A DNA stretch of 64,000 nt, taken from the IMG/VR virus record IMGVR_UViG_3300031715_000003, positions 30,225 to 94,224 of that record, one strand, 5' to 3'. Position 1 is the first letter of the stretch, and the number at the start of each line of letters is the position of its first letter. Positions 10,906 through 61,343 of the stretch are shown here, piece after piece. The stretch comes from a virus. A model generated the notes under the pieces. It searched no databases. It was not told where the DNA came from and saw nothing but the letters and a program-made list of their open reading frames with translations. The translations under genes were made by a program, and so were the position numbers.

Positions 10906-10935
10906 TTGACTTTGTAGGGTATTCCGCCGTAAGAT
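10906..10935 (+). promoter_or_regulatory. Promoter before 5-nt repeat array
   Basis: TTGACT at 10906-10911, 18-nt spacer, TAAGAT at 10930-10935. The predicted start is at about 10942, exactly where the 5-nt array begins, so the array would form the 5' end of the transcript. Confidence 0.65.
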
Positions 10936-10941
10936 GGCCTT

Positions 10942-11012
10942 GCATCTCTCGTCGGGTCTGCTCCTGGCATGTCATCACGCAGCGCTACACGGCAACGCGA
11001 CGCAACGCAAGG
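10942..11012 (+). repeat. 5-nt periodic array, 14 units
   Basis: Fourteen pentamers in one phase (GCATC TCTCG TCGGG TCTGC and so on), all with C at position 2 and G, T or A at position 1. It ends with GCAAC GCAAGG, the same ending as other arrays at 20763, 51976 and 52184. No gene is encoded in it. Confidence 0.75.
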
Positions 11013-20762: not shown

Positions 20763-20843
20763 CCTTGCGTTGCGATGCTATGCGCCGACGAGATTTGCGG
20801 AGACGAGATACGCCAGGCTCCGACGAGCGCCGACATGCCGTGA
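20763..20843 (-). repeat. 5-nt periodic array, 16 units, leftward
   Basis: On the minus strand: TCACG GCATG TCGGC GCTCG and so on to GCATC GCAAC GCAAGG. All 16 units have C at position 2 and G or T at position 1. It points against the surrounding genes. A leftward promoter candidate (TTCAGA, 17 nt, TATAGT) lies just upstream at about 20852-20880. Confidence 0.75.
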
Positions 20844-20848
20844 CTTCC

Positions 20849-20877
20849 TTACGACTATACCAAGATTATGGTATCTT
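20849..20877 (+). promoter_or_regulatory. Promoter with palindrome
   Basis: Rightward TTACGA (20849-20854), 17 nt, TATCTT (20872-20877). ATACCA and TGGTAT form an inverted repeat inside the spacer (about 20857-20874) that also supplies a leftward TATAGT; a shared operator for divergent transcription is plausible. Confidence 0.5.
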
Positions 20878-20896
20878 CTGAAGCAGGAGATTCCTG

Positions 20897-43126: not shown

Positions 43127-46100
43127 ATGGCCGACGCCGACACCCAAGGATGGTCGTGGGGGACAGCCGCACCACCACCGCAGGGCTCCCCTACGGAAGG
43201 ATGGTCATGGGGGACCTCGGCTCCTGAGCCGCCGACTCAGCCTCCAGCCACTAGGACAGTAAGACGGTTCGGACAGCCGCCGCAGCAAGTGCCAATTGGG
43301 CAACCAGCACCAGAAGATCAGGCACCCGCCGGTCCACCATTGAAGGCATGGAACTGGGATGTGATTCGGGCCTATCCCACGGTCATCGGCAGCATGGTGA
43401 ACTCTCTGCTGCAGACTCCCGTAATCCCCAAAGTCGCCATCTCGGCACCGACTACCGCTGAAGCCCTACAGGCCGCGTCCCGCGCACCTGGCGCGCCCGC
43501 TATTCTGCAACATCCCATCGTGCAGCGCGGTCTGGACATTGCGGCTGGCGCATCGCGGTGGGCGTTGGAGTTTGGCCGCCAGATGACGGCTCCCGCCAAC
43601 ATCGGGATGATGTTCGGCACCGAAGGCGTGGGACTCCTGCCGGGAGCGCTCTCCAAGATAAGCCAGTACCTGCCGCGCGCCATCTCAGGAGTGTTCAGTT
43701 GGCAGATGCTCAAGGGAGCCTATGATCAGGTCCCAGCGGTCAAGCAAGCGATCGACAAGGGAGATTACGCTGGTGCCGCATCCACCATCACGAGTATCGG
43801 ACTTCAGGGGCTGATGGGGGCGGCCGGTGCGCTCCATTTGGCATTCGATACCACGGGGAGATTCGCGCGATCGCTTGAGGAGCACAATGCCAACGCGGAA
43901 GTTGCGCTGCAAAAGGAAGCTCAGCAGCAAACTCCCGTGGGCCAAGGGGAGGGCACTCCAGTAGAGGGGCTGAACCGCCCAATGTCGGTCCGGACCGCCA
44001 CGCTTGGCCCCGATGGTTCTCCCTCAAGCTACGACGTAATCGATCCCGATACGGGAGAAGTGCTACATGAAGGGGATTACCCATCCGTAGCCAATTTCAT
44101 AAGGCAGTACCAAGCGCAGTCGATAGAAGGCGATATCGATAAGGCGGCAGAGCAAGGCTGGAGCTTTCCAGAAGAGCCGCCATCGTCACCAGAAGCACCC
44201 GCCCCTCCGGGAGAGGAGGTGATCCCTCAGGCACAAGCGGCAGGGGCGGGACCACAACAGGAGGTTCCCAGTGTCAGTGTGGGTGAAGGTCGAGGGGCTG
44301 AACAGCCAGCAACGGTGGGAGGAGGCGAAGCAGGAGTTGAAGGGGGCGCACCTGGAGGTGAACCACCCGTACCTGTACGGGGAGTTCCGCCACAGGGACC
44401 AAGCGGACTTGGCAGTGCTCAGCCTCAATCTGCTGCCGGGGGTACGGGCGAGCGTGCTGGAGCAGTGGCGGGATCTACCGGATCTGCGGAAGATGTAGTG
44501 ACGGGCGAAACCGACCTCCCCCTGGATACTCAAGGGGAACGTGACGCCAAGACCGATGCGAAGAAGGTTGCGGACGTCGACGAGGTCAACACCAGCCCGA
44601 AGCAACGCGGAGAGCAAACTGGTGCAGCGGTAGGGGAAGTCGCTGGTGTCAAACCACAACCTGACGAAGCACTTGCTCCGTGGAATCTGGGGCCAGAGAT
44701 TCAGGGGAGGCCGCAAACAGAGGTCAAGGCCCTGATGGACGACTACATCGTGAAGCGTCCTGATGAGGCCCCTCCTGGAGGGGAATCGTTCAACGATTTC
44801 AGCCAGCGATTCATCGGCGGCATCCAGCAGCAGATGGCGGATTACCAACCCGGACAGAAAATCCTCAACATCACGCACTCGATTGGAATCCACACGGCGC
44901 TGGCATGGAGCGAAAACGGTTCTCCCCAGGATAGATCGATCGACAATCAAGCGATGCTGGACCGGACCCACATGGACCCCGGATCGTTGTGGCGAATGAA
45001 TCCCAAAACGGGGGTCATGACGGAAGCAAAGAACGATGCCAAGCCGGGGATCTACTTTCAGCGGCACGCCGATACTGCATGGGACAATCTGAAGCCGGGG
45101 GAGGCCGTTCCTAACGCGGCAGATGCTGGAGCACCAAATCCAGAAGTAGCGCAGGAACCGCCCGCTACGCTTCCGGGGAAGGAGGAGGTTTCCTCAGTTA
45201 CGGCCCCTGTTCCCTCAGTTACGGCAGCAGTTCTCTCAGTACCTCCCCAAGAGCGTCCTCCCCTGCCCGACAGGATCATGTCAGCAATGCGGGCCCTGGA
45301 GCCGACGCCGGGAGTTCCAGTTTCGATGGAGCGGCTGCGTGCGGCACTCCCCGATGTTGGCAAGCCGGATTTCGATAGCGCGATGCTGCAATTGCGGCAG
45401 AACCAGCAAATCTACCTGCACCCGCATGACAGCCCAATGCGTCTTCCCCCAGAACAGCGCGCAACATTGGTGCCGAGCGCGGGTACGAACCCCAACAACT
45501 TGGATGAGCACTATGTTGCGGCAAGCGAAAGGGGGAGTACGCCAGCGGCAGCGGCGGGAAGAACTTCCATTGGGAGGACGACTCCCGCAAAAGGAACCCC
45601 GGAACGCGAGCAGATCGAATCTGAGTACGACCGTCTGCGGAAGGCCATCGACGAACAAACCCCAATAGTGGAGGGTCTTCAAGCCAAATACGATAAAGCC
45701 GGATACGGGACAAAAACGCGCGAGGCGGCGGGAAGGAAATTGGAGGTCGCCAAGGATAAGCTGGATGGTCTATATGCGGAACTAAATCCGATAACGAAGC
45801 GCTCCTACCGCGCCATGTTGGAGGATGCCGTGGAGTCCGATAACCCAATCCTCCGTCAAGCCGCAGGACTTAAGCTCGACGAGGAACTGGGAAGACGAAC
45901 CGGCGACAGATACAGCACGGTTGAAAAAACGCTAACCACTGAACTGGAGCCAATCGCCAGGGCGGCAGCAGTGAGAGTTGAGGACGGACGCGCCTATCTT
46001 TCTCCGCAACAGGAAGAGCAGGCGATCCGCAATGCTGCGGTATCAACCGCCAGGAATTATCTCAGTTTCCCGCTGACTGCTGAAGAGGACATCCCCAAGA

Positions 46101-49100
46101 GAATGGAGGGCCACGTTAGAGGAGAGCGACTCCAGATATTTCGAAACGAAGCACAGGAAGAGATTTCGGCTATCGACAATTTGATCCGAGAGGAAGGTCT
46201 CCAGCGATCGCGCGTTCCCAACGTGCGGGACATGTACGACTTTGAACAGATCAGCAAGGCCGTGGAGAACGAGCGCAAGGTCCTCGCAGACCGACAGGAA
46301 GAAAAGCGACTCATAGAAGAGCAGGATAAAGCGGCGTCCATCAGTCTCGCCGAGAGGCTGGAGCCGATTGGCGACTTGAAGCCAACCGCCAGAACCAAGG
46401 GGATCTGGAACGGAAATGTCATCCTGGGCAACAGTCCATTCGTCACCGATGGCACCATGATGATGCCGATCAGCGCCGTTCAGGGTCCTAAATCCATGGC
46501 CGGTCTTCCTCGAAAGGCTTCCGCATTGGCTGAAGCGGCTAAGACTCCCAGCGCTACGCCGGAGCAAGCGACGACCATTTGGGAAAGGTCCACCGGCGCA
46601 GATTTAAAGCCAGTTCAATTCCTCGGGGCGGACAGGAGTAACAAGACGGTAGGGAGCAAGATGCCAGCGTTCTTCGTGAATGCTGATGGCAACATTGTCA
46701 CCGTGGATGCCAACAAACTGGCATTTATAAAAAGCGCAATAGGGGCCGATGACATCAAGGCGTCCACGACATCCACGCGCGCGGCATCTCCGCTTGTTCT
46801 CTTCAGGGACGGCAAGCCATCCGCCCTACTAATGCCCTGGAAGAATCCAGCGATCACCCCAGATTTAGCGATCGCCAGAAGCGGACCAGCAGCAGATAAA
46901 ATTCCTGCTGGCTTGACTCCCGAAAAAGCAGGTGAGCGCGGTGCCGTCGCCATCACGCCGCCGAACGTGCGGGCCGCACTACAGACCGCTGGCTCGCCCG
47001 CAGCGCAGATGCAGCAATTCCTGGGAGCTCGCAACAATGCCGCCCGTGCCCTCCTCTCGACATTGAATGCGACCGGCATCGACAGCCGACTGGGGGAGAA
47101 GATCCGGACCTTCACCACGGGAGAACGGGATTACCGCGTAGCCGAAACCAATCAACTGCGAGATGTGCTACGGCAGCAACTCCCCGATCCACTCGACCAG
47201 GAAGCCTTGACGCTGCTGCGCGACTTCAAGAATCGGCCCAATGAACTCGCGGAGTTTCGCAACGGAACGCATCCCGAATTCCAAGCGCTCTCCCCCCAGC
47301 AACAACAAGTAGCGTCCCAAAAGATCATGCAGATGCGACCCGTGATCGACAGGGTGCTAAATCCCTCGCCAGCACTCCTGGCGGCTGACCAGGAACTCAC
47401 CAACTACTTCCGTGCCCATCTGGCGGAAGGGAAACAACTGGGTTTCCTGGACTCGAGCATCCCGGACGAGGAGTACATCACGCACGTGTTTGCGCCAGAT
47501 CAGAGAACGGCAGGATCCTGGATCGGGAGACTTTCGCGCGGGCGCCTCGGACCGCGAAAGTTCCGATACAACCTTCAGCGCTCCTACCCGACCGTTTTGC
47601 ATGCGGTACTCCACGGCGTCGAACCCAAGACGATCAACGCGCTGGACGCGCTGGGCGTCTATGGCGAGAAGTACGCCACCACCGCTGCCTACCACTTCCT
47701 CACGACGCTGCTGCGCAGCACGGCAACCGGAAAGTGGGGGACGCAGCCGATGCAACGCGCCGGCCAGATCCCGGCCGATTGGGTTCCGCTGGCACCCGAT
47801 CAGCCACTGTTCCAGCAAAAGGTGCCGTACCTGGATCAGGCCGGGGAGGCGAGGCTGGCATCGCGCTCCCTATATGTGCCGCCCGATGTGGCCAAGGCGA
47901 TGCACGCCATCACGGACCCCAATTTCATGGAGCGGTATGCGTGGTGGCAAAACGTTCGGCAGGCTCAACAGGTTGTCAAGATCGTTGAGTTGGGATTCTC
48001 TATATTTCACATGAAGGCGCTGGCGTTGAGCGCACAGGCCAATATGGGACCCGGGGCAGCCGCTGCTGCCCTTGTGGCCGATAAGGATAGTCAAGACTTC
48101 TTGGATGCCGAGAAGGCTTGGATGAGATTTGGGTTGACGACTCCCATTACTGGGAAGACGATTGAGATCTACAAGGCGCTACGGCCCACGTCTCTTCCGA
48201 CCGTCGGGGAAAAGATTCGGAACCTTCCCGGCATTAAGCAGGCAGACAAAGCCGCTGCGGCAATCTCCCACTTCACCTTTGGTGTCATGCAGCGCAAACT
48301 AAAGGTGATCGACGCCTCACTCAAATTCGCAGCCTGGTCCGATTCGCATCCCAACGCAACGGATAAAGAGACCGCAGAAGCGATGCGCCTGATCGCGAAG
48401 GAAATCAATGCCGTGTATGGCGGCCTCCATTGGGAGAACATGGGCGTGGGGAGAACGATAGTGGAGCTGTCGCGAGCGATATTTCTGGCCCCAGACTGGT
48501 TCTACTCCGACCTGGCGACGTGGAAATACGCTCTCCAGAAGGGTTTAACCGGCGATGCCGCGCGAGTCTACATGCTGTGGGGTGCCGTTTCGGCGCTGTT
48601 AGGAACAGCGGCTCTGAGTTGGCTCTGGTCCAGGAAGCTTTCGAAAGACCCCACGCGCGTTATTCTCGGGAAGGACCGCGAGGGCCACGACGTGGATGAC
48701 AATCTGTTCTTCGTGGGTGCCATTGGAGACTTATCAACGCTGATTCACAACGTCGCTAGGTATGGGGCGCTTGTGGGGACAGCCCGCACGTTCGCATCCA
48801 AGTTTGGGCCCGTCACCAAAACCGCCGTGGCGCTCTCCAGCAATAAAAGCGCGCGTGGTGGCAGCGACATCATCCCCAGAACCATCAGCAAGAGCGTCTA
48901 TACCGGCCAGCCGTTGCCGAGAACTGGTCCGCGCGGTGGCCGGTCGCGTCCTCCCACATGGGGCGAGAAGAACGTGCTCGGGGCAGAGGAAGCGGCCGGC
49001 AACACTCTCCCTGTACCATTTACCGTGACGACGATTGCGAAGATGCTGGCCAATCCCAAGGAGCACTACCGACTGAGCCAGTACTTCGAAGCGCTCATCA

Positions 49101-49132
49101 GCGGGCGTCAGCCACGGGCGGTGAATCAATGA
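43127..49132 (+). CDS. Giant ejected polyvalent protein (2001 aa)
   Basis: ATG at 43127. Two short repeats at the N-terminus (GWSWGTAAPPPQG and GWSWGTSAPEPP), then an amphipathic stretch (residues 85-245). Residues about 455-655 form a histidine-phosphatase domain in changed order: LPLDTQGERDAKTDAKK, SPKQRGEQT, APWNLG, PGGESF, ITHS and only then YFQRHADTAWDN. Residues about 705-800 resemble a winged-helix (MERLRAALPDVGKPDFDSAM). A coiled coil follows at 830-885. The last 700 residues resemble the LPD38-type domain of large ejected polyvalent proteins, with AIFLAPDWFYSDLATWKYAL near 1785. Delivered with the DNA to act early in the host. Confidence 0.7.
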   Translation: MADADTQGWSWGTAAPPPQGSPTEGWSWGTSAPEPPTQPPATRTVRRFGQPPQQVPIGQPAPEDQAPAGPPLKAWNWDVIRAYPTVIGSMVNSLLQTPVIPKVAISAPTTAEALQAASRAPGAPAILQHPIVQRGLDIAAGASRWALEFGRQMTAPANIGMMFGTEGVGLLPGALSKISQYLPRAISGVFSWQMLKGAYDQVPAVKQAIDKGDYAGAASTITSIGLQGLMGAAGALHLAFDTTGRFARSLEEHNANAEVALQKEAQQQTPVGQGEGTPVEGLNRPMSVRTATLGPDGSPSSYDVIDPDTGEVLHEGDYPSVANFIRQYQAQSIEGDIDKAAEQGWSFPEEPPSSPEAPAPPGEEVIPQAQAAGAGPQQEVPSVSVGEGRGAEQPATVGGGEAGVEGGAPGGEPPVPVRGVPPQGPSGLGSAQPQSAAGGTGERAGAVAGSTGSAEDVVTGETDLPLDTQGERDAKTDAKKVADVDEVNTSPKQRGEQTGAAVGEVAGVKPQPDEALAPWNLGPEIQGRPQTEVKALMDDYIVKRPDEAPPGGESFNDFSQRFIGGIQQQMADYQPGQKILNITHSIGIHTALAWSENGSPQDRSIDNQAMLDRTHMDPGSLWRMNPKTGVMTEAKNDAKPGIYFQRHADTAWDNLKPGEAVPNAADAGAPNPEVAQEPPATLPGKEEVSSVTAPVPSVTAAVLSVPPQERPPLPDRIMSAMRALEPTPGVPVSMERLRAALPDVGKPDFDSAMLQLRQNQQIYLHPHDSPMRLPPEQRATLVPSAGTNPNNLDEHYVAASERGSTPAAAAGRTSIGRTTPAKGTPEREQIESEYDRLRKAIDEQTPIVEGLQAKYDKAGYGTKTREAAGRKLEVAKDKLDGLYAELNPITKRSYRAMLEDAVESDNPILRQAAGLKLDEELGRRTGDRYSTVEKTLTTELEPIARAAAVRVEDGRAYLSPQQEEQAIRNAAVSTARNYLSFPLTAEEDIPKRMEGHVRGERLQIFRNEAQEEISAIDNLIREEGLQRSRVPNVRDMYDFEQISKAVENERKVLADRQEEKRLIEEQDKAASISLAERLEPIGDLKPTARTKGIWNGNVILGNSPFVTDGTMMMPISAVQGPKSMAGLPRKASALAEAAKTPSATPEQATTIWERSTGADLKPVQFLGADRSNKTVGSKMPAFFVNADGNIVTVDANKLAFIKSAIGADDIKASTTSTRAASPLVLFRDGKPSALLMPWKNPAITPDLAIARSGPAADKIPAGLTPEKAGERGAVAITPPNVRAALQTAGSPAAQMQQFLGARNNAARALLSTLNATGIDSRLGEKIRTFTTGERDYRVAETNQLRDVLRQQLPDPLDQEALTLLRDFKNRPNELAEFRNGTHPEFQALSPQQQQVASQKIMQMRPVIDRVLNPSPALLAADQELTNYFRAHLAEGKQLGFLDSSIPDEEYITHVFAPDQRTAGSWIGRLSRGRLGPRKFRYNLQRSYPTVLHAVLHGVEPKTINALDALGVYGEKYATTAAYHFLTTLLRSTATGKWGTQPMQRAGQIPADWVPLAPDQPLFQQKVPYLDQAGEARLASRSLYVPPDVAKAMHAITDPNFMERYAWWQNVRQAQQVVKIVELGFSIFHMKALALSAQANMGPGAAAAALVADKDSQDFLDAEKAWMRFGLTTPITGKTIEIYKALRPTSLPTVGEKIRNLPGIKQADKAAAAISHFTFGVMQRKLKVIDASLKFAAWSDSHPNATDKETAEAMRLIAKEINAVYGGLHWENMGVGRTIVELSRAIFLAPDWFYSDLATWKYALQKGLTGDAARVYMLWGAVSALLGTAALSWLWSRKLSKDPTRVILGKDREGHDVDDNLFFVGAIGDLSTLIHNVARYGALVGTARTFASKFGPVTKTAVALSSNKSARGGSDIIPRTISKSVYTGQPLPRTGPRGGRSRPPTWGEKNVLGAEEAAGNTLPVPFTVTTIAKMLANPKEHYRLSQYFEALISGRQPRAVNQ

Positions 49133-50313: not shown

Positions 50314-50315
50314 GG

Positions 50316-50405
50316 GCGACGCAACGCGTGTCAACGCGCTACAATGCGCGGCGGCTCACGTCTGCGTAAGGCGAGTCTGGTCTGCTCCCGGCATCGCAAC
50401 GTAAA
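50316..50405 (+). repeat. 5-nt periodic array, 18 units
   Basis: Units begin every 5 nt from 50316 without an indel (GCGAC GCAAC GCGTG TCAAC ...). The array ends in GTAAAGGAG, which is the ribosome site of the next gene. C is at position 2 in all but two units (GTAAG, GTAAA). Confidence 0.8.
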
Positions 50406-50416
50406 GGAGAAATGGA

Positions 50417-50980
50417 ATGATTTCGGCAAAATGCCATCTTGAATCGATTTCGCAGTACTCCCAGAGCAAAGCTCATCGAGTTCCGCGCAATCAAAATGAA
50501 TCTTATGACCAATGGGAAGAGCGGACGTGGCGCGAACGCCTGCATGTGTCCGAGGATGGCCACATTTTTATTCCTCCCACTGCCATCAAAAACGCGCTCT
50601 CGGAGGCGGCTCAGTACCTCTCGATGAAGATTCCGGGGAAGCGCAACGCCACCTACACCAAGCGCTTCGTCTCGGGGGTTCTGGTGGCCGATCCCATAAC
50701 GCTGCCGATCACGGTCGATGAGGTCAAGTGCGAATGGCTTTTCCTGCCGGCCGATGGGAAGCGCGGTTCTGGAACGCGCGTCAACAAATGCCTGCCCCTG
50801 ATTGATCGGTGGTCGGGCGATGTACAGGTATTCATTCTGGACGACGAGATCAGCAAGGAGGTCTTCGAGAAGCACATGGATGTTGCGGGATCCTTGATCG
50901 GAGTTGGCCGGTTCCGCCCCTCGAAGAATGGATACTACGGTCGGTTCAAAGCTACCGTTAGGTCCTGGGAGTCGCAGTGA
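50417..50980 (+). CDS. Phage protein, possibly RAMP/Cas7-like (187 aa)
   Basis: ATG at 50417 behind the array-encoded AAAGGAG. Segments SYDQWEERTWRERLHVSEDG, IFIPPTAIKNALSEAAQYLS, TYTKRFVSGVLVADP, DGKRGSGTRVNKCLPLIDRW and VGRFRPSKNGYYGRFKA are conserved marks of a phage protein family I have seen without function. The IPP...ALSEAA step and the late Gly/Arg loop resemble RAMP (Cas7-type) folds, but this is a weak reading. First gene of the three array-associated genes. Confidence 0.55.
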   Translation: MISAKCHLESISQYSQSKAHRVPRNQNESYDQWEERTWRERLHVSEDGHIFIPPTAIKNALSEAAQYLSMKIPGKRNATYTKRFVSGVLVADPITLPITVDEVKCEWLFLPADGKRGSGTRVNKCLPLIDRWSGDVQVFILDDEISKEVFEKHMDVAGSLIGVGRFRPSKNGYYGRFKATVRSWESQ

Positions 50981-50992
50981 AATGATCTCGCG

Positions 50993-51136
50993 GCACGTCT
51001 TGGCGAGTCGCCTTCTGGCCAGTCCAGGCGCATCATGCTCTCGTCGTGGCCTGTCACCGCCTGTCGCTCAGCTAGGCACGTCTTGTCATGGCAGGTCTGT
51101 TCGCGTCTAGTCTTGGCACCGCATCGCATCTCAAGG
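50993..51136 (+). repeat. 5-nt periodic array, about 28 units
   Basis: From GCACG TCTTG GCGAG TCGCC at 50993 to GCATC TCAAG G at 51136, with one or two small phase shifts near 51035-51065. Ends in TCAAGGAG, ribosome site of the next gene. Confidence 0.75.
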
Positions 51137-51144
51137 AGAATAAA

Positions 51145-51348
51145 ATGGCAAAGGAATCTAAGATATCCAAACTCATCGAGGAACTAGCAGAAGAAATGGC
51201 AGAGGATCTGGTGAAGAGTTTGACGATGGAGTTTAAAAAGATTTCGCCGGGAGCGAACAGGCTGGCAAATGGAAAGCGTAGGAGCACGCCAGAGGCTTCT
51301 GGCCCAAAGAAACCTGGTTGGAGCATAAGGGGTACGAAGAGGAAATGA
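51145..51348 (+). CDS. Small basic helical protein (67 aa)
   Basis: ATG at 51145, 5 nt after AAGGAGAATAAA with the array in front. Acidic amphipathic helix (LIEELAEEMAEDLVKSLTME), then a very basic tail (KRRSTPEASGPKKPGW). Could be an adaptor for RNA or DNA. Unknown. Confidence 0.6.
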   Translation: MAKESKISKLIEELAEEMAEDLVKSLTMEFKKISPGANRLANGKRRSTPEASGPKKPGWSIRGTKRK

Positions 51349-51355
51349 TTTCATG

Positions 51356-51440
51356 GCTCGTCCGGGCCCGGCATGGCAACGCTTGTCCTGGCAGGACTCG
51401 GCTCGTCTAGTCGTATCGTGGTATGGCACGGCATCGCAAG
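51356..51440 (+). repeat. 5-nt periodic array, 17 units
   Basis: Perfect phase from 51356: GCTCG TCCGG GCCCG GCATG ... GCACG GCATC GCAAG then GAG. All units but GTATG have C at position 2. The last unit forms the ribosome site of the gene at 51450. Confidence 0.8.
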
Positions 51441-51449
51441 GAGAATAAA

Positions 51450-51971
51450 ATGGCAGTAGAAACTAAAAACGGTAAAGATCCAAAGCGTCCTATTGGTACG
51501 ATCTCGATCGACACACGGGTCGTTTACGATCGTCTCAAGGCGACGCAGATCGGGGAGACCGTACTGTATGCCGATTTGACCAAGCTAATCGGTCGCGATA
51601 TCCGCGGCGTGGCTTCATGGGTACTCCAGAGCGCACGGCGCAAAGCCCTGCACGACGATCAACTGGTGTTCGGATCGGTTCGCAACGAGGGAGTACGGCG
51701 TCTGGCAGACACGGAGATCGTCGACACCGGGCACGACGCCATCACTCAGATCCACAGGCGGTCGGTTCGGTCCCTCAGGAAGCTGGCCTCAGTCCAGGAT
51801 TTCAGCGCTCTCCCCCCGCAAGATAAAGTGCGACACAATGCCTACGCTTCGCTGCTCTCCATATCGGCGCATGCCACCCGGGATAAGCAGGTCAAGAAGA
51901 TCGAACAAGCAGTGGAAAAGTCTCAGGCAGCTCTGGCGGTCCAGAGGACGCTGGACGCGCTCAAGGAATAA
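51450..51971 (+). CDS. Winged-helix-like phage protein (173 aa)
   Basis: ATG at 51450 behind GCAAGGAGAATAAA. Residues 17-80 (DTRVVYDRLKATQIGETVLY, LTKLIGRDI, VLQSARRKALHDDQLVF) look like a winged helix with a basic recognition helix. The C-terminal half is a long helical hairpin. Third and last gene of the array locus. Function unknown. Confidence 0.55.
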   Translation: MAVETKNGKDPKRPIGTISIDTRVVYDRLKATQIGETVLYADLTKLIGRDIRGVASWVLQSARRKALHDDQLVFGSVRNEGVRRLADTEIVDTGHDAITQIHRRSVRSLRKLASVQDFSALPPQDKVRHNAYASLLSISAHATRDKQVKKIEQAVEKSQAALAVQRTLDALKE

Positions 51972-51975
51972 CATG

Positions 51976-52151
51976 GCTCGTCGTGGCGAGTCTTCGCCTA
52001 GCAGGTCTTGTCATGACGAATCACCGCACGTCCATGCGAGTCCAGTCCGCGCTCCTCGATGCATATCGTGGCGATTCGTGGCGGCTCCTAGCATCGCCTG
52101 TCGGTGCACGGCATCTCCCGGCGAGTCCTGTCCCGGCAACGCAACGCAAGG
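51976..52151 (+). repeat. 5-nt periodic array, 35 units, perfect phase
   Basis: Thirty-five consecutive pentamers from 51976 to 52150 without a single indel (GCTCG TCGTG GCGAG TCTTC ... GCAAC GCAAC GCAAG). Every unit has C at position 2; position 1 is G or T except one A. No real gene starts behind it: the next 33 nt (GTATTAATGTGG...) are AT-rich and lead into another array. Confidence 0.85.
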
Positions 52152-52183
52152 TATTAATGTGGTCTTTTATAACGTTCTTCTCG

Positions 52184-52279
52184 GCGTGTCTGGTCAGAGC
52201 ACGGCAGGTCTGCGCCCGGCATTGCTCGTCTGCGCGCCACGTGGCGTATCAACTCCGCTCTAAGCGCGGCATCGCAAGG
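52184..52279 (+). repeat. 5-nt periodic array, 19 units
   Basis: Perfect phase from GCGTG TCTGG TCAGA GCACG at 52184 to GCGCG GCATC GCAAG G at 52279. Followed by 44 AT-rich nt with no gene, then the last array. Confidence 0.8.
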
Positions 52280-52323
52280 TTCTTTATCTCCCCAAAACTA
52301 CAGTAAAATGGTCTACATATTCA

Positions 52324-52402
52324 GCGTGGCGCTGGGCCCGTCATGGCTTAGCGAGACAACGCAAGGCTGGTCTGGTCTCGGCAACGCCGGGCAACGCATC
52401 GG
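52324..52402 (+). repeat. 5-nt periodic array, about 15 units
   Basis: GCGTG GCGCT, a 2-nt shift, then GCCCG TCATG GCTTA GCGAG and so on to GCAAC GCATC at 52400. The next 60 nt are AT-rich and end in a hairpin. Confidence 0.7.
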
Positions 52403-52464
52403 ATTTAAACGAAGACTGGCATTTATGTTGTAGAATCGTAGTCGTAAGCGTAAGGCCAAAGGTA

Positions 52465-52516: not shown

Positions 52517-54943
52517 TTGAGGAGAGCACTAACCATCATTGCGCTCCTGCTGGGTGCGGCAGTGCACGCCGCCGCCCAGTACGGCCTCGCGCCAGCCTTT
52601 GATCAACAATTTTTCAGCAACACCGGCTTGCCGCTCATCGGCGGCCAAATCTACACCTGCTACGCCGGAACCTCCTGCCCCGGCAATCCGCTGGCCAGCT
52701 ATACCGATTCCACCGGCGCAGTCCAGAACTCCAATCCCGTGGTCCTCGATGGATTCGGCCGCGCCTCCATCTGGCTAACGTGCAGTCTCGCGTACAAGCT
52801 CGTTCTTCAAGATGCCATGGGGAATACGCTCGTCACCTCCGACAACCAAACTTGCGGATCCGGTGGTGGCGGAGGCGGTGGAACCAACTACTGGACTCTG
52901 TCGGGGAGCACGATCTACAACAACAACGGTGGTGGCACGGAACCTCCGGGCGGCGCAGGCAACGTTCAGGTAGGGGCGGATTTCATCGCGGGCGGAAACC
53001 TGTGGGCCGGACAATCGCTCCGGATTGCCTCCAGTACCGCGCCTAACCACTTCATATTGCGGGCCAACAGCGGCATGGCTAGTGATGTGACGTGGCGGTG
53101 GGCCCAGCAGGACGCTATGGGGTGCTTGGCCAGCGACGGAATGGGCAACCTCAGCTTTCAGGCGTGCGGGGCAGGCTTGACCCCTGGAGGCTCAAATGGA
53201 AACGTGCAGTTCAACAGCAACGGGTATTTTGGGGGGAATTCCAACTTCAACTGGAACAATACGAGCCAACTCCTTACTGTCGTTGCGCAGACCAGTAGCG
53301 TAGCGGGGATTGCGGTTGGAACCGGCTACGTCCAGGCCGATGCGGGATTCCTAGCCACGCCGTCTACAGCGACGCAATACGATGTGGTCAACGCTCCTGG
53401 CGGCGGGATGTACGCGCTGTCGTTTACGGCCGCCAATTACATCCAAAGCGGCTTCGGAGCAACTAACCCGACAATGACGCCCGGCGACTCACCGCATCCC
53501 GGCGCACTCTATTGGAACACGACCTCTGGGGCGGAGCAGGTCTTCAATGGAACTGCATGGGTGTCGCTAGGGGGCGGTAGCGGATCCGCTGGAGGCTCCA
53601 ACACCGATGTGCAATTCAACAGTTCTGGAGCCCTCGGGGGAAGTGGAAATTTCACATGGAACAACGGTAGTCGGCTCCTCACCGTAACGTCGGCATCCTC
53701 TGGCGTGGCGGGGATCGCGGTCGGAACTGGCTACATTCAGGCGGATGCGGGCTTCCTTGCGACGCCCGGAACCGCCATGGCCTATGATTCGATTCAAGCC
53801 CCTGGCGGTGGATTCTATGGGAAATCCTTCACGGCCCTGAATTATATCCAGACTGGAAACGGCACTGCCATTCCGACGCTTACCTCTGGAGATAGCCCGA
53901 ACGCAGGGTGGATGTACTACAACACGACGAACGCGTGCGAGGAACTCTATAGCGGGACCGCATGGAGTTGTCTGGGGATGGCTGGCTCCAGTTCCCCGGG
54001 GGCTCCCAACAGTTCCGTGCAGTTCAATAACTCTGGTGCCTTAGGAGGTTCGGCCAACCTGATGTGGAACAACGGCAGCCAACTCCTGACCGTTACGGCA
54101 GCGTCTTCCTCAGTCGCTGGAATCGCGGTTGCTACCGGATTTGTTCAGGCAGATGAAGGATTTATCGCAACCTCCGGAACGGGCACCCAGTACAACGTCA
54201 TTCAGGCTCCTGGCGGAGGAATGGCCGCGAAGTCTTTCACGGCCGCGAACTACATCCAGACGGGGAGCGGCACCGTAAACCCCACCGCCACCACGGGCGA
54301 TACCTTCAACCCGGGCGCGCTTTACTACAATACAGCGAACGCCTGCGAAACCCTCTACAACGGGTCGGCTTGGGCCTGCATAGGGGGAGGATCAGGGGGA
54401 GGGCCATTCCCGTCGACATACTTTATCCCCGCAGCCAACTGCGTAACCGGGGCTCCTGGGTCTGGATGGTCGATAAGCTCCGGAGGATCGGCTTCCTGCA
54501 GGTCTGGTGTCCATAATGTAGGCGGCTACATCGCCATCAGCGATACGTCCTCAACGTTTGCCAGTTTTCAAGTAGAGATCCCGCTTGATTGGGACACGGG
54601 AGTCAACCCCTACATTCGGTTCCAGCTCGCTTCGACCGATACGGCGAGCGGCCACACCATCATCCCGCAGATTCAGGTCGCCTGCTACAAGGGAGACGGG
54701 ACCACTACGGATGATGTAGTCGCGAACGCAGCGCACTCCTCGAGCACCGTTACCCTGAACGGGAACGCGAACGCATTCTGGGCGACTTCCAACGTACAGA
54801 TGAACTCCACCGATGTTACGGGTTGTGTCGGTGGCTCCCTCATGCAGGTCACGGTCGGTCGCGCTACCGACACGGCGACCAGCGCGGAATTCTACGGCGC
54901 CACCATTACGTTCCCGCGATCGATCATGGTGCAACCGGACTGA
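52517..54943 (+). CDS. Exported fibre with tailspike head-binding-like domain (808 aa)
   Basis: TTG at 52517 after AAGGGAGGAGGCACG. Signal peptide MRRALTIIALLLGAAVHAAA with Gln at +1. Residues about 25-115 (FSNTGLPLIGGQIYTCYAGT, YTDSTGAVQNSNPVVLDGFG, YKLVLQDAMGN) resemble the P22 tailspike head-binding fold. A Gly linker leads to three repeats of about 140 residues (GGSN..VQFN...LLTV...GIAVGTGYVQADAGFLATP) and a C-terminal beta domain. A virion-attachment domain behind an export signal is contradictory and notable. Confidence 0.65.
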   Translation: MRRALTIIALLLGAAVHAAAQYGLAPAFDQQFFSNTGLPLIGGQIYTCYAGTSCPGNPLASYTDSTGAVQNSNPVVLDGFGRASIWLTCSLAYKLVLQDAMGNTLVTSDNQTCGSGGGGGGGTNYWTLSGSTIYNNNGGGTEPPGGAGNVQVGADFIAGGNLWAGQSLRIASSTAPNHFILRANSGMASDVTWRWAQQDAMGCLASDGMGNLSFQACGAGLTPGGSNGNVQFNSNGYFGGNSNFNWNNTSQLLTVVAQTSSVAGIAVGTGYVQADAGFLATPSTATQYDVVNAPGGGMYALSFTAANYIQSGFGATNPTMTPGDSPHPGALYWNTTSGAEQVFNGTAWVSLGGGSGSAGGSNTDVQFNSSGALGGSGNFTWNNGSRLLTVTSASSGVAGIAVGTGYIQADAGFLATPGTAMAYDSIQAPGGGFYGKSFTALNYIQTGNGTAIPTLTSGDSPNAGWMYYNTTNACEELYSGTAWSCLGMAGSSSPGAPNSSVQFNNSGALGGSANLMWNNGSQLLTVTAASSSVAGIAVATGFVQADEGFIATSGTGTQYNVIQAPGGGMAAKSFTAANYIQTGSGTVNPTATTGDTFNPGALYYNTANACETLYNGSAWACIGGGSGGGPFPSTYFIPAANCVTGAPGSGWSISSGGSASCRSGVHNVGGYIAISDTSSTFASFQVEIPLDWDTGVNPYIRFQLASTDTASGHTIIPQIQVACYKGDGTTTDDVVANAAHSSSTVTLNGNANAFWATSNVQMNSTDVTGCVGGSLMQVTVGRATDTATSAEFYGATITFPRSIMVQPD

Positions 54944-55986
54944 TGCAGATGAGGAGATCCATTACCCTAGCGTTGGCAGTTGGGCTTGCGGCCTACGCCC
55001 AGTACGTCCCTGTCCCATTTACCACCACCAGTTGTCTGGCGATCTCCCCGCCTGGCCCTGGCTGCGGGACCGGAACCAACACTATATTCCTGACATCCGC
55101 CAGCGGCACCTGGACGGTTCCGACCTGCTGGAACAATTCCAACAACTCGATTGAGGGAATTGGAGGAGGAGGAGGAGGTAATGGCGGTGGCTCTCCCGGC
55201 GTAGCGGGCGGAGGAGGAGGTGGGGAGTACGCCAAAGTCGTCAACCTCGCGCTCACGATAGGAGCCTCCATTCCCTACACGGTGGGGGCAGGAGGTGCCG
55301 GGGGAAACTCTGCCGGCAGCAACGGGGCCAACGGAGGCGCGACGTCTTTCAACACTACGACCCTCGTGGCACACGGCGGGGGCGGCGCCACCTCGTCTGC
55401 AGCGGGAGCAGGAGGAACTGGCGGCACCGGAACCACACTGCATAACGGCGGCTCCGGGGGAACAGCCGGGACCCACAGCGCTTTCTCCGGCGGCGGAGGC
55501 GCGGGCGGACCCAACGGTACGGGAGCGACAGGTGGCCCCTCCAATACTGTCGCCGTAGAAGCTGGAGCTGGCGGTGGAGGCGGTTCGGGAGGAGGGATGG
55601 CCGGCGGCGCTCCGTCCGCGAATAATGGAGGGGCTGGTGGTGCCAACTTCTCTGGAAGTGTGGCAGGTGGGGCTGGAGAGACCAGCGGCGGAGCGGCTGG
55701 AAACGGAGGGGGCGACGTCAACGGGGCCTCTGGGGGCGGTGGAGGCGGAGCCACATTTCTGATGCCTGGCAAGGGAGGATCTGGAAGAGAATGGGGCGCG
55801 GCCGGATCAGGCGGTGGCGGAGGCGGCGGCGGCGGAGCCAATTTCTTCGGGTCAGCCACTGGCGGCTCTGGCGGGTGTTTCGGCGGCGGAGGCGGATCCG
55901 GTTCATACGATAACGTGGACGGGGTTATGCCCGCCCCGGGAGGACCAGGCGCGCCTGGTTTGCTCGTAATAAAGTACACGAATTAG
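54943..55986 (+). CDS. Exported glycine-rich adhesin-like protein (347 aa)
   Basis: ATG at 54943 inside the previous stop (TGATG). Signal MQMRRSITLALAVGLAAYAQ. A short beta part (FLTSASGTWTVPTCWNNSNN) starts a glycine-rich domain: most residues from 75 to 335 are Gly with Ala/Ser/Asn, in blocks of GGGG. This resembles the polyglycine sandwich of phage adhesins such as S16 gp38 and other glycine-rich tail-tip proteins. Likely receptor binding. Codon-level antisense frames here are artefacts of the Gly codons. Confidence 0.6.
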   Translation: MQMRRSITLALAVGLAAYAQYVPVPFTTTSCLAISPPGPGCGTGTNTIFLTSASGTWTVPTCWNNSNNSIEGIGGGGGGNGGGSPGVAGGGGGGEYAKVVNLALTIGASIPYTVGAGGAGGNSAGSNGANGGATSFNTTTLVAHGGGGATSSAAGAGGTGGTGTTLHNGGSGGTAGTHSAFSGGGGAGGPNGTGATGGPSNTVAVEAGAGGGGGSGGGMAGGAPSANNGGAGGANFSGSVAGGAGETSGGAAGNGGGDVNGASGGGGGGATFLMPGKGGSGREWGAAGSGGGGGGGGGANFFGSATGGSGGCFGGGGGSGSYDNVDGVMPAPGGPGAPGLLVIKYTN

Positions 55987-55997
55987 AAGGAGAAAAG

Positions 55998-56366
55998 TTG
56001 AAACAGTTATTGTTCGTTTTGATGGCCGTGGCGGGATTCTCCCAGGAGTCTGGGGAGACCGCTCCAAAGCCAGAGGCCAAAAAGGAATACCTACTGACCA
56101 AAGAGGAATCGCTAACGGTGAAGCTCGATATCGCGCAGATCCAACTCCTCAATGAGAAATACAAGATTGATGACTACAACAAGGAAATAAAGCCCTGGAG
56201 CGCGGAACAGGAAGATGTCATCACGAAAGCCTGCATGAAGGTAGGGGTCGCCAAGGATAAGATCCGGAGCGACTGTGGGGTCTCGTTGGGGGCGAAGGAT
56301 CAGGCCGGAAACGAACTCCCCGCGAAGGTGTGGAAGATCGAGAAGGTGACGGCTCCGGCCAAATAA
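55998..56366 (+). CDS. Exported helical protein (122 aa)
   Basis: TTG at 55998 after AGAAGGAGAAAAG. Signal MKQLLFVLMAVAGFSQ with Gln after a small residue. Mature part is Lys/Glu-rich and helical (ESLTVKLDIAQIQLLNEKYK) with one Cys pair. Not beta-rich like its neighbours; may be a chaperone or spacer. Unknown. Confidence 0.5.
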   Translation: MKQLLFVLMAVAGFSQESGETAPKPEAKKEYLLTKEESLTVKLDIAQIQLLNEKYKIDDYNKEIKPWSAEQEDVITKACMKVGVAKDKIRSDCGVSLGAKDQAGNELPAKVWKIEKVTAPAK

Positions 56367-56368
56367 AT

Positions 56369-57118
56369 ATGCGGTGGATCGCTGCAATTTGTCTGACTGG
56401 CGGCCTTGGGGCGCAATCCCTCACGACCGTAACCGACACCATCACCTGGGCCAACGGCGTGATGCCGAACGGCTACGCAACGATCCGTTGGCAACGATTC
56501 CTCAATGCTTCGAAACAGGTGGTGGCACCTAATTCCGTCGGCCTCGTTGTCCCGGTCACGAGTGGGGCCTTTAGCGTGCTGTTGACACCGACCGACACGG
56601 CAGTCCCGGTGGGGAGTTGCTATTCGGTAGCGTACTCCCTGAATGGAACCAACTATACCCGCACCTGGAATGTCCCTACCACTACGAACCAGGTCGGGTT
56701 GAGCGTTGTGGAGAGCGATACGCCCTGCACTCCCCAAACGGCCGCCGCGGTGGCGCTCTCGCAGTTGACCAACTCAGGCGCCAAGACCGGACAGGTCATC
56801 GCCTGGAACGGTGCATATTGGGCCCCGGCGCTCGGTAGCGGAAACTACGTCGGCACGGAGACTGGCACCAATAACGCATGGGCCATAGCGTTGACCGATG
56901 CCTCGGGGAATGCCGTCTCGCTGGTGGCCGGACTCGAGGTATGCGTGCAGTCGACCCACACGCTTCAGGCTGGGGCCAATACGCTGTCGTTCAACGGCAC
57001 GGCCAAGAACATCAAGAGCCACCTCAACAGCGGGAACAACATTGCGACCGCGCACTCGGGGCCGGGAATCGGATGCTTCATGTACGACGGAACGGGCTGG
57101 GAGGATTTAAGTGAATAA
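56369..57118 (+). CDS. Exported fibre-tip-like protein (249 aa)
   Basis: ATG at 56369. Signal MRWIAAICLTGGLGAQ. The first 120 residues form an Ig-like beta domain (TITWANGVMPNGYATIRWQR); the last 75 (STHTLQAGANTLSFNGTAKN, IKSHLNSGNNIATAHSG) match the end of 37594-38145. Overlaps the next GTG. Confidence 0.55.
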   Translation: MRWIAAICLTGGLGAQSLTTVTDTITWANGVMPNGYATIRWQRFLNASKQVVAPNSVGLVVPVTSGAFSVLLTPTDTAVPVGSCYSVAYSLNGTNYTRTWNVPTTTNQVGLSVVESDTPCTPQTAAAVALSQLTNSGAKTGQVIAWNGAYWAPALGSGNYVGTETGTNNAWAIALTDASGNAVSLVAGLEVCVQSTHTLQAGANTLSFNGTAKNIKSHLNSGNNIATAHSGPGIGCFMYDGTGWEDLSE

Positions 57119-60100
57119 AACATATACGGCGCTGCTGCTTCTGGCGGCCGGCTCCTACGGACAGGTCATCAACAATGGAGGAGGCGGGGGGGGAGGCGGA
57201 ACTCCCTTTATACCGGGTGGCCAAAATGGTGGCGTCTACCAGAATGTGGGGGGGAATCCTCAGGCAACCGCTACAGGAGGTGCCGGAACTCTCTGTTTCG
57301 TTGAAACTAATGGTGGAATACCGACGTGGGGTTCGTGCTCCGGCTCAGCCGCCACGGCGTGGAGTTCCCTCACGAATCCCTCCGCCAACGAAGCGCTAAA
57401 TATGGGGACCAACACCACCACCTTTACGCTCGGGACAGGCACGGGAACCAATAGCGGCTTCCTCTTCCAGGACACGACTGGCAATACGGGGACCGGCCCC
57501 GTTCTTCAGGTCGCAACTATTGGGACATCCACGATGTTGCCTGTTCAGATCACGGCCAAGGGAACGGCCAATGGCATCAACATGACGGCCGCAGGGCTCC
57601 TCCAAGCGATCGGCACTGGCGGCATCAACGCCACCCAAATCGCCGGCGCCGCACTCGGAACCACGACAGCCACCTCCGGCAACCTACTGATCGGCTCCGG
57701 TTCGCAATGGGTGACAGAACCACTCTCCCAGGACTGCACACTCTCCAGCGCGGGAGTCATTACGTGCCTCAAGACCAACGGAACGCTATTCACCGGAGCC
57801 GCAACGATGTCGCTCCCGGTATCGGTAGCCAACGGAGGGACGGGCGTCTCTACGCTGCCAGGCACCAGTGGTCAGTGCCTCATCAATAACTCGGGAGCGT
57901 TTGGAGCAGTGGCGTGCGGTGGCCTCACGCTTCAGACCAATGGGACCAACAACTCCAGCCAGACGACGCTCAACATACAGAACGGCACGGCAGCAAACGG
58001 CGTGAACGTCATGTTCAGTAATCCGAGTGCAGGCAACGTTAAGCCAGCGGTATTATTCACCAACAGTTTGAGCAGTTCATCAATCCTGGCTACGGATTCC
58101 AGCGGAAATGTCTCTACGCCAGCCAGTCCGGCCTGCAGCACTTATTTTTCGGGATGCAGCGGCGGAGGCGGCATCACTCAGTTGACGAGCGATGTTACGG
58201 CAGGTCCAGGAAGTGGATCTCAGGCCGCAACGATTCAGCCAGGTGTCGTTACGCTCGCGAAGATGGCTAATCTCACGGCCAACAGCATCATCGGGAACAA
58301 CAACGGATCTCCCGCCACGCCTATCGCGTTAACGGAGACGCAGGTCACGGCCATGTTGAATCCCTTCAGCAGCAGCCTCAAGGGTGTTGCCCCGGCATCC
58401 GGCGGAGGTACGACAAACTTCTTGCGCGCGGACGGGACGTGGGCGACCCCTCCAGGTGGAGGATCGGGCTGCAATCCCTCGGGCGGTGCCGGGGTTGTTC
58501 AGGCGTCCAACGGAAGCGGTGCGTGCCAGAACACCAGCATTACCGACAACGGGACTACGGTCAGCACGACAGAACCTATTAGCGCTGGTGGGACTATTAC
58601 GGCAGGCGGCTCAGGAGCGGGCGCTTTCGTTTTCCCCCAAGGGACCACGCAATCGGCCGCGAGCGGAACGTTTGTATTGCAAGCCCCACCAACGATCACG
58701 ACGCCCTATGAGTTGACGAGTTTCACAGCGCCGGGAACGGGATTACAATTTTGGACCAACACTAGCGGCAATATGCAAGCATCGTTGGTTACCTCAAGCG
58801 CAGCATGCTCGACATACTTCACGGGCTGTAGTGGAAGCACTGGAGTCTCCTCACTGAATACCTTGACTGGTGCGCTCACTATCGCGGCTGGTACCAATAT
58901 CACGGTCACGCCTTCCGGGGGCAATACCTTGACGATCGCGGCAGCAGGTAGCGGAGGAAGCGGCCTAATCAACACCGTAGCGACGGACTTCAGTATGACG
59001 GTTACCAGCGGAACGGTCCTAACGATGAGCGCCGGCACTTACGGCATCGGCTACGCGCAATACACCACTTTCGGGAGTACGACGTATACCCTATACCAGC
59101 GCACAATTTCCACAATTTCCTCAGCCACGCAAGCCGTCCTCACGCTGTCCTCGGCCCTTGCCAACTCTATCGCTGTCGGGGACACCTACTACGTGAGCGG
59201 GGCCACAGGGAGTGGATGCACGGGGCTGAATGGGCTCCAGACCGTGGTGAACATCGGCGGGGGCGGAACCCTCATCACCATCAACTACAACTCGATGGGC
59301 TGCACCTATGGAGCTTCCAGCGCGACATTCGGTGCGAATCCAGGCGCATCAGGAACTGGATACATCTACGGCGATAAGCTGGGCAACCTCACCATTATGA
59401 TGCCTGCAAGCGCCGGGATTTTAGTGAGCCCATCTGCTGGAATCTCGATCCAATCGGCCACTCCTGGATTCGCCGCCGGTAGTTGGCCAATCTCTCAATT
59501 CACGCTGAACAGCACGGGAAATGGCAATTGGGCGACCGCAGTCGATAAGCGCGTCTTTGCGGAAACCACCGCCCTCATCGCGTCCACCGGAATGCTGCTG
59601 AATGAAGCGGGCGGAGTCTGGACCGTAGGGATAGACCCGAGCGTAGTGCCGGAATTGGGTGCGGGCAACATTTGGACCGGATCAAGCGATTGCAGCGGAT
59701 GTGTCTATGCGGCCCCAATGCCGGTACTAGCGAGCGCTCCTGTGGCTTGTGTGGTGGGGCAGTATTACTTCAACACCGTAACCACTACGGGAAATTCCTG
59801 TATAGCAGCTAATACGTGGGGTGCGTCTCTTACAGAAAGCGCCGCTCCTATCGTCTTATCAAATAGTAGTGCGACGTCTGCCGTCACGCTGGCGACCTCT
59901 TCGATAGCTAGTGGAGACTATCTCATCACCTATGGGTTAGACCTTCATACACCCTGCACGACAGGAACTGGGCAGTTGTATCTCTCTATTGCATACGGTT
60001 CTAATGCCGCGCGAACGATCAAAACAGGAGACTGGGCATTGACGGCGACGCAGGGCGCTTCGGTACCGTTTAGTGGAGTCCTGCCTATTCATGTGGTAAC

Positions 60101-60212
60101 TGGGACAGCCGTAACCATTACTCCGACTCTAGATGCTACCGCTCCTAATGCCGGAGCTTGTACGACTGGTACGGCGACGTGGGATGGAAAGATCTGGATG
60201 GTGGGGAGCTAA
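57111..60212 (+). CDS. Long exported tail-fibre-like protein (1033 aa)
   Basis: GTG at 57111. Signal MNKTYTALLLLAAGSYGQ, then a Gly-rich segment, many Thr/Gly/Ser beta repeats, the fibre pattern SVANGGTGVSTLPGTSGQCL, and a C-terminal jelly-roll-like knob (residues about 900-1033, VTLATSSIASGDYLITYGLD). From about 59750 the DNA becomes AT-richer, so the tip may be a recent exchange. Likely surface binding. Confidence 0.6.
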   Translation: MNKTYTALLLLAAGSYGQVINNGGGGGGGGTPFIPGGQNGGVYQNVGGNPQATATGGAGTLCFVETNGGIPTWGSCSGSAATAWSSLTNPSANEALNMGTNTTTFTLGTGTGTNSGFLFQDTTGNTGTGPVLQVATIGTSTMLPVQITAKGTANGINMTAAGLLQAIGTGGINATQIAGAALGTTTATSGNLLIGSGSQWVTEPLSQDCTLSSAGVITCLKTNGTLFTGAATMSLPVSVANGGTGVSTLPGTSGQCLINNSGAFGAVACGGLTLQTNGTNNSSQTTLNIQNGTAANGVNVMFSNPSAGNVKPAVLFTNSLSSSSILATDSSGNVSTPASPACSTYFSGCSGGGGITQLTSDVTAGPGSGSQAATIQPGVVTLAKMANLTANSIIGNNNGSPATPIALTETQVTAMLNPFSSSLKGVAPASGGGTTNFLRADGTWATPPGGGSGCNPSGGAGVVQASNGSGACQNTSITDNGTTVSTTEPISAGGTITAGGSGAGAFVFPQGTTQSAASGTFVLQAPPTITTPYELTSFTAPGTGLQFWTNTSGNMQASLVTSSAACSTYFTGCSGSTGVSSLNTLTGALTIAAGTNITVTPSGGNTLTIAAAGSGGSGLINTVATDFSMTVTSGTVLTMSAGTYGIGYAQYTTFGSTTYTLYQRTISTISSATQAVLTLSSALANSIAVGDTYYVSGATGSGCTGLNGLQTVVNIGGGGTLITINYNSMGCTYGASSATFGANPGASGTGYIYGDKLGNLTIMMPASAGILVSPSAGISIQSATPGFAAGSWPISQFTLNSTGNGNWATAVDKRVFAETTALIASTGMLLNEAGGVWTVGIDPSVVPELGAGNIWTGSSDCSGCVYAAPMPVLASAPVACVVGQYYFNTVTTTGNSCIAANTWGASLTESAAPIVLSNSSATSAVTLATSSIASGDYLITYGLDLHTPCTTGTGQLYLSIAYGSNAARTIKTGDWALTATQGASVPFSGVLPIHVVTGTAVTITPTLDATAPNAGACTTGTATWDGKIWMVGS

Positions 60213-60215
60213 ATC

Positions 60216-61343
60216 ATGAAACTACTATTCGTTGTTGCACTTTACCCCGTGTTCCTGTTGGGTCAGAATGCCGCTTCTGGAACAGCTATGGGAAGCCCGA
60301 GCGGTACCGGGGCAGCTAATTTACATCTTACCAATATCGTAGACACGGCTATTACACAGCCGCTAATAACTGCCCCTGACCTTAGTAGCCTGTGGGTGGC
60401 AAACGGTGGGATTATAACCGGGGCTAGTGGCACAAACAGGCTTGTAGTCCAGAACTCCTCTTTAGACGCTTCCGGTATGAGCGCACCAGGAGTAACGCAG
60501 TTCGTTGGAACAATTGTTAATTCCACGTCACCTGACCCTAATGGTTATTGGGGACTTTATGCAGAGACATTGATTCCCACCACGAGCACCGTTAATTATA
60601 CTGGGTCAGATTATCTAGCACTCTATGGAGAATTCGATCACTTCGGAACCGGAAACGTGAGTAACGGAGTGGGTGTGGATGCGGAGTCATATGTAGAGGC
60701 TGGAGGAACCGCTACTAGCTTAGTAGGTCTTGAAGCGTTTTCTGGCAATTATGGAACTGGTCTAGTTACAGAGGCGGATGCTGTATACGCTGCCGTAAAC
60801 GGACCAGGCCCAATTACTACCGGTATAGGCGTGCACATAGACGCACCTGTAGCCGGTGGGGCTCCAGTGAATCTGGTGGGTTTACAGATTGAGAATCAAA
60901 CATCCGGGACGGGTACTAATTTTGCAATCAAGACAGGACTCGGAAAGGTACAATTCGGAGATGCGTTAGCGGTAACCGGTGCTTTCACGGTCGGAGCAGG
61001 GGCACCTCTTCCACCATGCGCGGACGCTGGAGGATCTCACCTGAACTGGACTAGCACAGGCGGTTTCGCGTGCGGAATAACCGTGGGCAGCAACCCGAAG
61101 GGCACGCTTTCGTGGGATTTTGGAGCGCTAAACGATGGGTCATGCAACAGCAAGACCTTGCCGTTGGGAGGAGCCTCATTAGGAGACCCGATCACCCCGG
61201 GATTTCCGGCAATTGCTTTCGCGGGTGCGATGACAATGTTTGTGAGCGCTATAGATACGGTGCAAGTAACGGTCTGCAATTTCTCTGGAAGTACTTCGGC
61301 CGATCCTGGAATATTAGCATTTATCGCAGAGGATACAAAATGA
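60216..61343 (+). CDS. Exported beta-rich protein (375 aa)
   Basis: ATG at 60216. Signal MKLLFVVALYPVFLLGQ. Mature part has repeated strands (VVQNSSLDASGMSAPGVTQF, GVGVDAESYVEAGGTATSLV) of fibre type and a VCNFSG-like end. DNA is AT-richer than the flanks. No enzyme motif. Confidence 0.55.
   Translation: MKLLFVVALYPVFLLGQNAASGTAMGSPSGTGAANLHLTNIVDTAITQPLITAPDLSSLWVANGGIITGASGTNRLVVQNSSLDASGMSAPGVTQFVGTIVNSTSPDPNGYWGLYAETLIPTTSTVNYTGSDYLALYGEFDHFGTGNVSNGVGVDAESYVEAGGTATSLVGLEAFSGNYGTGLVTEADAVYAAVNGPGPITTGIGVHIDAPVAGGAPVNLVGLQIENQTSGTGTNFAIKTGLGKVQFGDALAVTGAFTVGAGAPLPPCADAGGSHLNWTSTGGFACGITVGSNPKGTLSWDFGALNDGSCNSKTLPLGGASLGDPITPGFPAIAFAGAMTMFVSAIDTVQVTVCNFSGSTSADPGILAFIAEDTK

Follow-up and report, generated by a model that had tools for sequence, protein, structure and literature searches.

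The five-letter repeats between the genes of this virus are very probably VIPR guide RNAs, in a form whose fixed part is less strict and which has additional guides at a distance from the main locus. They were analyzed in a window of 64,000 nucleotides, comprising positions 30,225 to 94,224 of IMG/VR record IMGVR_UViG_3300031715_000003. We put a probability of about 0.93 on the reading that the window carries a tailed-phage VIPR locus consisting of vipr, a 67-amino-acid (67-aa) open reading frame (ORF), a vap-like gene, at least six guide arrays and two solitary ones, the mechanism outlined below included. In a 2026 preprint from the Doudna laboratory, VIPR is described as a phage-encoded RNA-guided system related to CRISPR (PMC13142463). 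Its effector, Vipr, is a phage-encoded minimal RAMP homologue (~20 kD) with a G-loop and acts on guides called vrRNAs, which are built from 9 to 16 pentamers, each with a GGY triplet and two hypervariable bases (also written YNNGG), the triplet following GGY or a related consensus (PMC13142463). The NN bases pair with DNA in a code that leaves one base unread between successive dinucleotides, in most cases the wobble base of a codon. Complexes bound in this way repress transcription, chiefly that of competing phages and satellites (PMC13142463). The same text reports an invariant 3' tail with conserved structure for type II vrRNAs and hammerhead ribozymes in some arrays, and proposes VIPR as the ancestor of CRISPR RAMPs (PMC13142463).

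The initial annotation of the window had described the gaps between these genes as pentamers of the form K-C-N-N-N. When such units were scored across the whole 94,224-base record, C occupied position 2 in 158 of 162 units and G or T occupied position 1 in 154, in agreement with that description. Lag-5 C-C pairs were more frequent than in 1000/1000 dinucleotide-preserving shuffles in each of five locus gaps (50314-50416, 50981-51144, 51349-51449, 51972-52160, and 52161-52440; z 3.8 to 7.1), and the excess over all 1000 shuffles was also found in the two distant arrays, a1 and a2. The autocorrelation of C in the locus gaps had its highest peaks at lags 5 and 10, and along one 150-nt stretch C filled 30/30 in-phase positions. 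The best period-5 array score was 59.8, compared with at most 15.6 for controls with periods of 4, 6, 7, and 8 and 23.2 for the reversed sequence. The period is real, but calling it strict was slightly too strong because the phase shifts in the gap at 50981-51144 (two small shifts) and in the stretch beyond 52150.

Positions 3 and 4 of the 162 units were near random, with H of 1.91 and 1.97 bits, respectively; at position 5, 90 units had G and 46 had C (136 together). Re-phased, the unit reads [G/C][G/T]C (SKC) followed by NN, with three bases constrained and two free; the middle base of the triplet was T in 40% of the window units. This modifies two earlier statements: two bases vary freely rather than three, and what is kept is the period together with the C and the two bases preceding it, not the period alone. 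The two variable bases of each unit are probably the message, i.e., the guide sequence, and not noise. A tandem-repeat scan and the period-5 analysis found no CRISPR direct repeats with unique spacers, showing contiguous diverged pentamers instead; with the unit statistics, this bears out the view that the arrays are not a microsatellite, a CRISPR array, or a coding period.

The whole-record scan located seven array segments at the locus and two distant ones 30 to 40 kb away (Table 1). The six arrays that had been counted within 2 kb are present, but the locus holds seven segments, and the distant pair had not been listed.

Table 1. Arrays, genes, and promoter-like sequences in the window (window coordinates)
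Feature	Position	Strand	Basis or description
Promoter-like TTGACT-18-TAAGAT	10906..10935	+	Ends 1 nt before a1
a1, solitary vrRNA-like array	10937..11011	+	15 units, ends GCAAC GCAAG G
a2, solitary vrRNA-like array	20764..20843	-	16 units, ends GCAUC GCAAC GCAAG G
Promoter-like TTCAGA-17-TATAGT, TG before -10	20854..20882	-	Upstream of a2
a3, vrRNA-like array, vipr leader	50316..50400	+	17 units, period-5 scan and shuffles
vipr, 187-aa RAMP (Cas7-like), predicted guide-RNA-binding effector	50417..50980	+	PHROG, hhalign, fold model
a4+a5, vrRNA-like	50988..51135 (50988-51037, 51066-51135)	+	1-2 nt phase shifts between them
67-aa ORF between vipr and vap, own array leader	51145..51348	+	Open reading frame
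a6, vrRNA-like array	51351..51440	+	18 units, period-5 scan and shuffles
vap-like accessory gene, 173 aa	51450..51971	+	Homologous to SUSP1 gene after vipr
a7, vrRNA-like array	51971..52150	+	36 units, period-5 scan and shuffles
a8, vrRNA-like array	52179..52278	+	20 units, period-5 scan and shuffles
a9, vrRNA-like array, less regular	52321..52400	+	16 units, period-5 scan and shuffles

The arrays usually end in (K)CAA..CAAGG, and the strand of the locus arrays agrees both with vipr and with this CAAGG 3' end. The a4+a5 stretch ends in TCAAGGAG, the ribosome site of the 67-aa ORF, and a6 ends in GCAAGGAG, the ribosome site of vap. AAGGAG and then the start codon thus come directly after a5 and a6 and nearly so after a3, with GTAAAGGAG; three arrays had been said to end in a ribosome site, which holds fully for the first two. 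Arrays a7, which probably holds more than one guide, and a8 have the CAAGG end followed by neither a start codon nor a hairpin. Since most arrays are followed by unrelated sequence after CAAGG, no structured common tail is visible. Hairpins were found only after the solitary arrays, at CUGGGGGA/UCCCCCAG 3' of a1 and, a strong one (z -3.2), at GGGGGGAG/CUCCCCCC 3' of a2. The promoter-like pattern of a1 occurred at 2 sites in the stretch against 0.3 expected per shuffle, and that of a2 at 1 site against 0.2. Intrinsic terminators were not in excess at the locus, and Rfam at the gathering threshold gave 0 matches in the window, the hammerhead ribozymes of some VIPR arrays included.

By sequence comparison, the gene at 50417 is a homologue of vipr. 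Its product has a glycine-rich loop, GVGRFRPSKNGYYGRF, and shares phrog_4652 (E = 1e-11) with the Vipr of Escherichia phage SUSP1 (1.4e-96); no match was found in Pfam. Aligned as families, the two gave an hhalign probability of 98.1% over 167 columns, the glycine-rich loop included. A RAMP fold is predicted from the AlphaFold2 model (pLDDT 79, with low confidence for the G-loop, residues 162-172), and RNA binding is predicted by homology. In a Foldseek search of this model against the PDB, the top 39 matches (E <= 1e-3) were all CRISPR effector complexes, mostly Cas7/Csm3, headed by subunits of Cas7 (type VII) and Csm3 (type III). The TM-scores were moderate (about 0.5), as expected of a distant, minimal RAMP. 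The family of the 51450 product matched that of the SUSP1 protein ALH47068 with an hhalign probability of 96.7%, and its model (pLDDT 74) weakly resembled winged-helix DNA-binding domains. The 67-aa ORF had no Pfam or PHROG match and no tblastn match among the relatives' loci compared.

Arrays and vipr were associated in both directions of search. Pentamer arrays were present in 4/4 viral relatives found by protein alone (L183 to L186), and also beside the vipr genes of an Accumulibacter (L195) and the cyanobacterium Iningainema (L196), likewise found by protein alone; the vap-like gene adjoins vipr in L183, L184, L186, and L195. The initial annotation had named two refuting outcomes, no lag-5 excess of C over shuffled sequence and related phages lacking any period; the excess survived shuffling, and the corresponding gaps of related viruses show this period too. 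Conversely, phrog_4652 was encoded in 35/50 IMG/VR records picked by the array pattern alone and in 0/50 control records, which came from other pattern scans and were without arrays (Fisher P = 2e-15). The figure of 35/50 is a lower bound because many array records are fragments. A 1.9-kb viral fragment (L047) bears an array of period-5 units and has no vipr within it. Matches to the pattern GCAWCGCAACGCAAGG in IMG/VR were mostly chance or coding, and Vipr was present in 6/7 of the clearly array-bearing ones. The cyanobacterial locus (L196, 5560-5710) lies on a chromosomal contig and has short STC/NN arrays; it is possibly a host-borne or prophage VIPR.

A letter-free period-5 scan found the triplet GGT for SUSP1; next to the majority of the other vipr genes it found triplets of the GGC type. 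The clade containing the Vipr of the window was split from the SUSP1 side with a support of 100/100, and its triplets were GGC, GRC, SKC (the window), STC, CKC, and CGC, the C being the most constant scaffold base. The published plan of SUSP1 (vrRNA, vipr, vap, and three vrRNAs) was found again in KT454805, with GGY arrays on both sides of vipr-vap. SUSP1, a type II VIPR, and the window have in common homologous Vipr and Vap, the vipr and vap pair with arrays on both sides, and pentamers with a three-base scaffold and two free bases. They differ in the scaffold (SKC in the window, GGT in SUSP1, and GGY as published), in the clade of Vipr, in the extra 67-aa ORF of the window, in its guides between the genes and its two solitary distant guides, and in guides that run into the ribosome sites of locus genes. 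SUSP1 also has a structured common tail, whereas the window arrays are without one. As the tail is described for type II vrRNAs, its absence argues against the SUSP1 subtype and not against VIPR. The window has a minimal RAMP Vipr, an adjacent vap, and pentamers of a fixed triplet and two variable bases flanking vipr; its triplet is strictly not GGY, and those of its clade relatives span GGC to STC/CGC. The locus is most likely a divergent branch of VIPR, which the published list of seven types may already cover.

Class 1 CRISPR-Cas effectors (type III Csm3/Cmr and type VII Cas7) likewise have the RAMP fold predicted here and a protein expected to oligomerize on its guide RNA and leave a regular footprint. 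Their period, however, is 6 nt and not the 5 nt of the window, where the guide information is gapped, and neither CRISPR repeats, spacers, nor further cas genes were seen at the locus. The leaders bound by TRAP, the trp RNA-binding attenuation protein, contain (G/U)AG repeats with 2-nt spacers and so also present a short RNA motif every 5 nt. The motif there is KAG, in contrast to SKC in the window, and the neighboring protein in the window has a predicted RAMP fold. A TRAP-like ring protein was an early candidate and was dropped once the RAMP homologue had been found.

By analogy with the published SUSP1 and P. fulva systems, each array would be transcribed as a vrRNA, along whose pentamers the RAMP subunits of Vipr would bind, holding on to each [G/C][G/T]C triplet and exposing the two bases that are free. 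Taken together, these dinucleotides would pair with a DNA target through a code that skips one base (xNN), and transcription of competing mobile elements would be blocked by the complex once bound. The initial annotation had proposed a contact every 5 nt, by half a helical turn of DNA or by a filament protein. The filament on RNA fits, since the 50417 product is homologous to Vipr and Vipr is a RAMP working on RNA pentamers of this type, while the option of a DNA half turn was left without support. In its main lines, the proposal of a protein footprint at 5-nt intervals was right, a conclusion that the evidence supports, but the system had already been described.

The arrays could instead be mainly cis-acting mRNA leaders, with Vipr assembling on the pentamers ahead of vipr, the 67-aa ORF, and vap and repressing translation at the AAGGAG that closes them in an autoregulatory circuit, any guide role being secondary. 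Arrays a5 and a6 do run straight into AAGGAG ribosome sites, a3 nearly does, and the closing CAAGG doubles as a Shine-Dalgarno sequence. However, a1, a2, a7, and a8 share the CAAGG end with no vipr or vap gene after it, a1 and a2 are isolated and have promoter-like sequences of their own, and a simple leader role leaves the free NN positions unexplained, so this account appears unlikely. Far less probable is a DNA interaction with half-turn phased contacts, e.g., at a packaging or partition site. It would accommodate a period of strictly 5 nt that extends over as much as 180 bp, but the phase is broken by indels between segments, the strand of the locus arrays follows vipr and the CAAGG end, the neighboring protein is a predicted RNA-binding RAMP, and the solitary copies have promoter-like sequences. 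Least credible of all is a decayed microsatellite or pentamer expansion without function. Unit sequences do vary and phase shifts do occur, but nearly all units (158/162) retain C ahead of two near-random bases, a pattern that is not one of neutral decay, and the same period stands beside vipr in distant viruses and a cyanobacterium, with the 35/50 versus 0/50 association.

Targets of the putative guides were sought by taking positions 3-4 as NN and skipping one base from each NN to the next. For a6, a9, a2, a1, and a7, five 8-unit patterns were searched for natural targets in IMG/VR and gave 7 to 13 matches each, none extending beyond the seed. When 111 guides of relatives were compared with 2.1 Mb of loci at skips of 0 to 2, they matched no more often than their shuffled versions. 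In the orders of the cyanobacterial and Accumulibacter relatives, the guides of these had 1 match in 293 cyanobacterial genomes and 0 in 300 Accumulibacter-order genomes (twice), about the chance level. Within its own genome, a6 had a weak match of 20/24 bases inside vap, on the opposite strand and with a 1-nt skip (P = 0.0025, 400 shuffles), and a9 had a weak match in the next gene, at 52635, also with a 1-nt skip (P = 0.03). The skipped base was the wobble position in both, no comparable match in their own genome was found for a6 and a9 with a skip of 0 or 2, and no relative gave a better match. As nine arrays and three skip lengths were tested, these self-matches are a lead and not a result. 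They are consistent with self-regulation or with guides aimed at homologous genes of rival phages.

The window also has a terminase gene (19114-20682), a portal gene (phrog_156, 25184-27418), a head-closure Hc3 gene (33888-35402), and a DNA-ejection protein gene at 39107, which suggests a P22-like podovirus. The style of the secreted proteins hints at a host among the Acidobacteriota. The structural region contains a 2001-aa ORF (43127-49132, +) in which a histidine phosphatase domain is embedded (residues 453-600, E = 3.9e-18), and a LAGLIDADG homing-endonuclease-like ORF lies at 18131-18658 (-) (E = 2.5e-13). Several large ORFs, Gly-rich or of low complexity and with starts resembling signal peptides, follow the VIPR locus at 52517-64000 (+); the first of them holds the weak a9 self-match. 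Upstream of the window, the same virus record encodes another RNA-guided family, a 381-aa TnpB-like protein (OrfB_IS605, Cas12f1-like TNB domain; L002:13738-14883, -).

It is possible, though we hold it only tentatively, that in this VIPR branch the scaffold has relaxed to approximately "C every 5 nt", that guide 3' ends have fused to the ribosome sites of the locus, and that promoter-bearing solitary guides act in trans. If the fusion is true, a single molecule would serve as guide and mRNA leader, and VIPR may be self-regulating here. VIPR guides can be found by period alone, as a simple array pattern recovers vipr-bearing viruses. The guide format is extended, in that the fixed triplet drifts within the Vipr clade and a guide can be located at a great distance from the effector genes. 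With this drift, the scaffold bases truly needed by the protein become directly testable.
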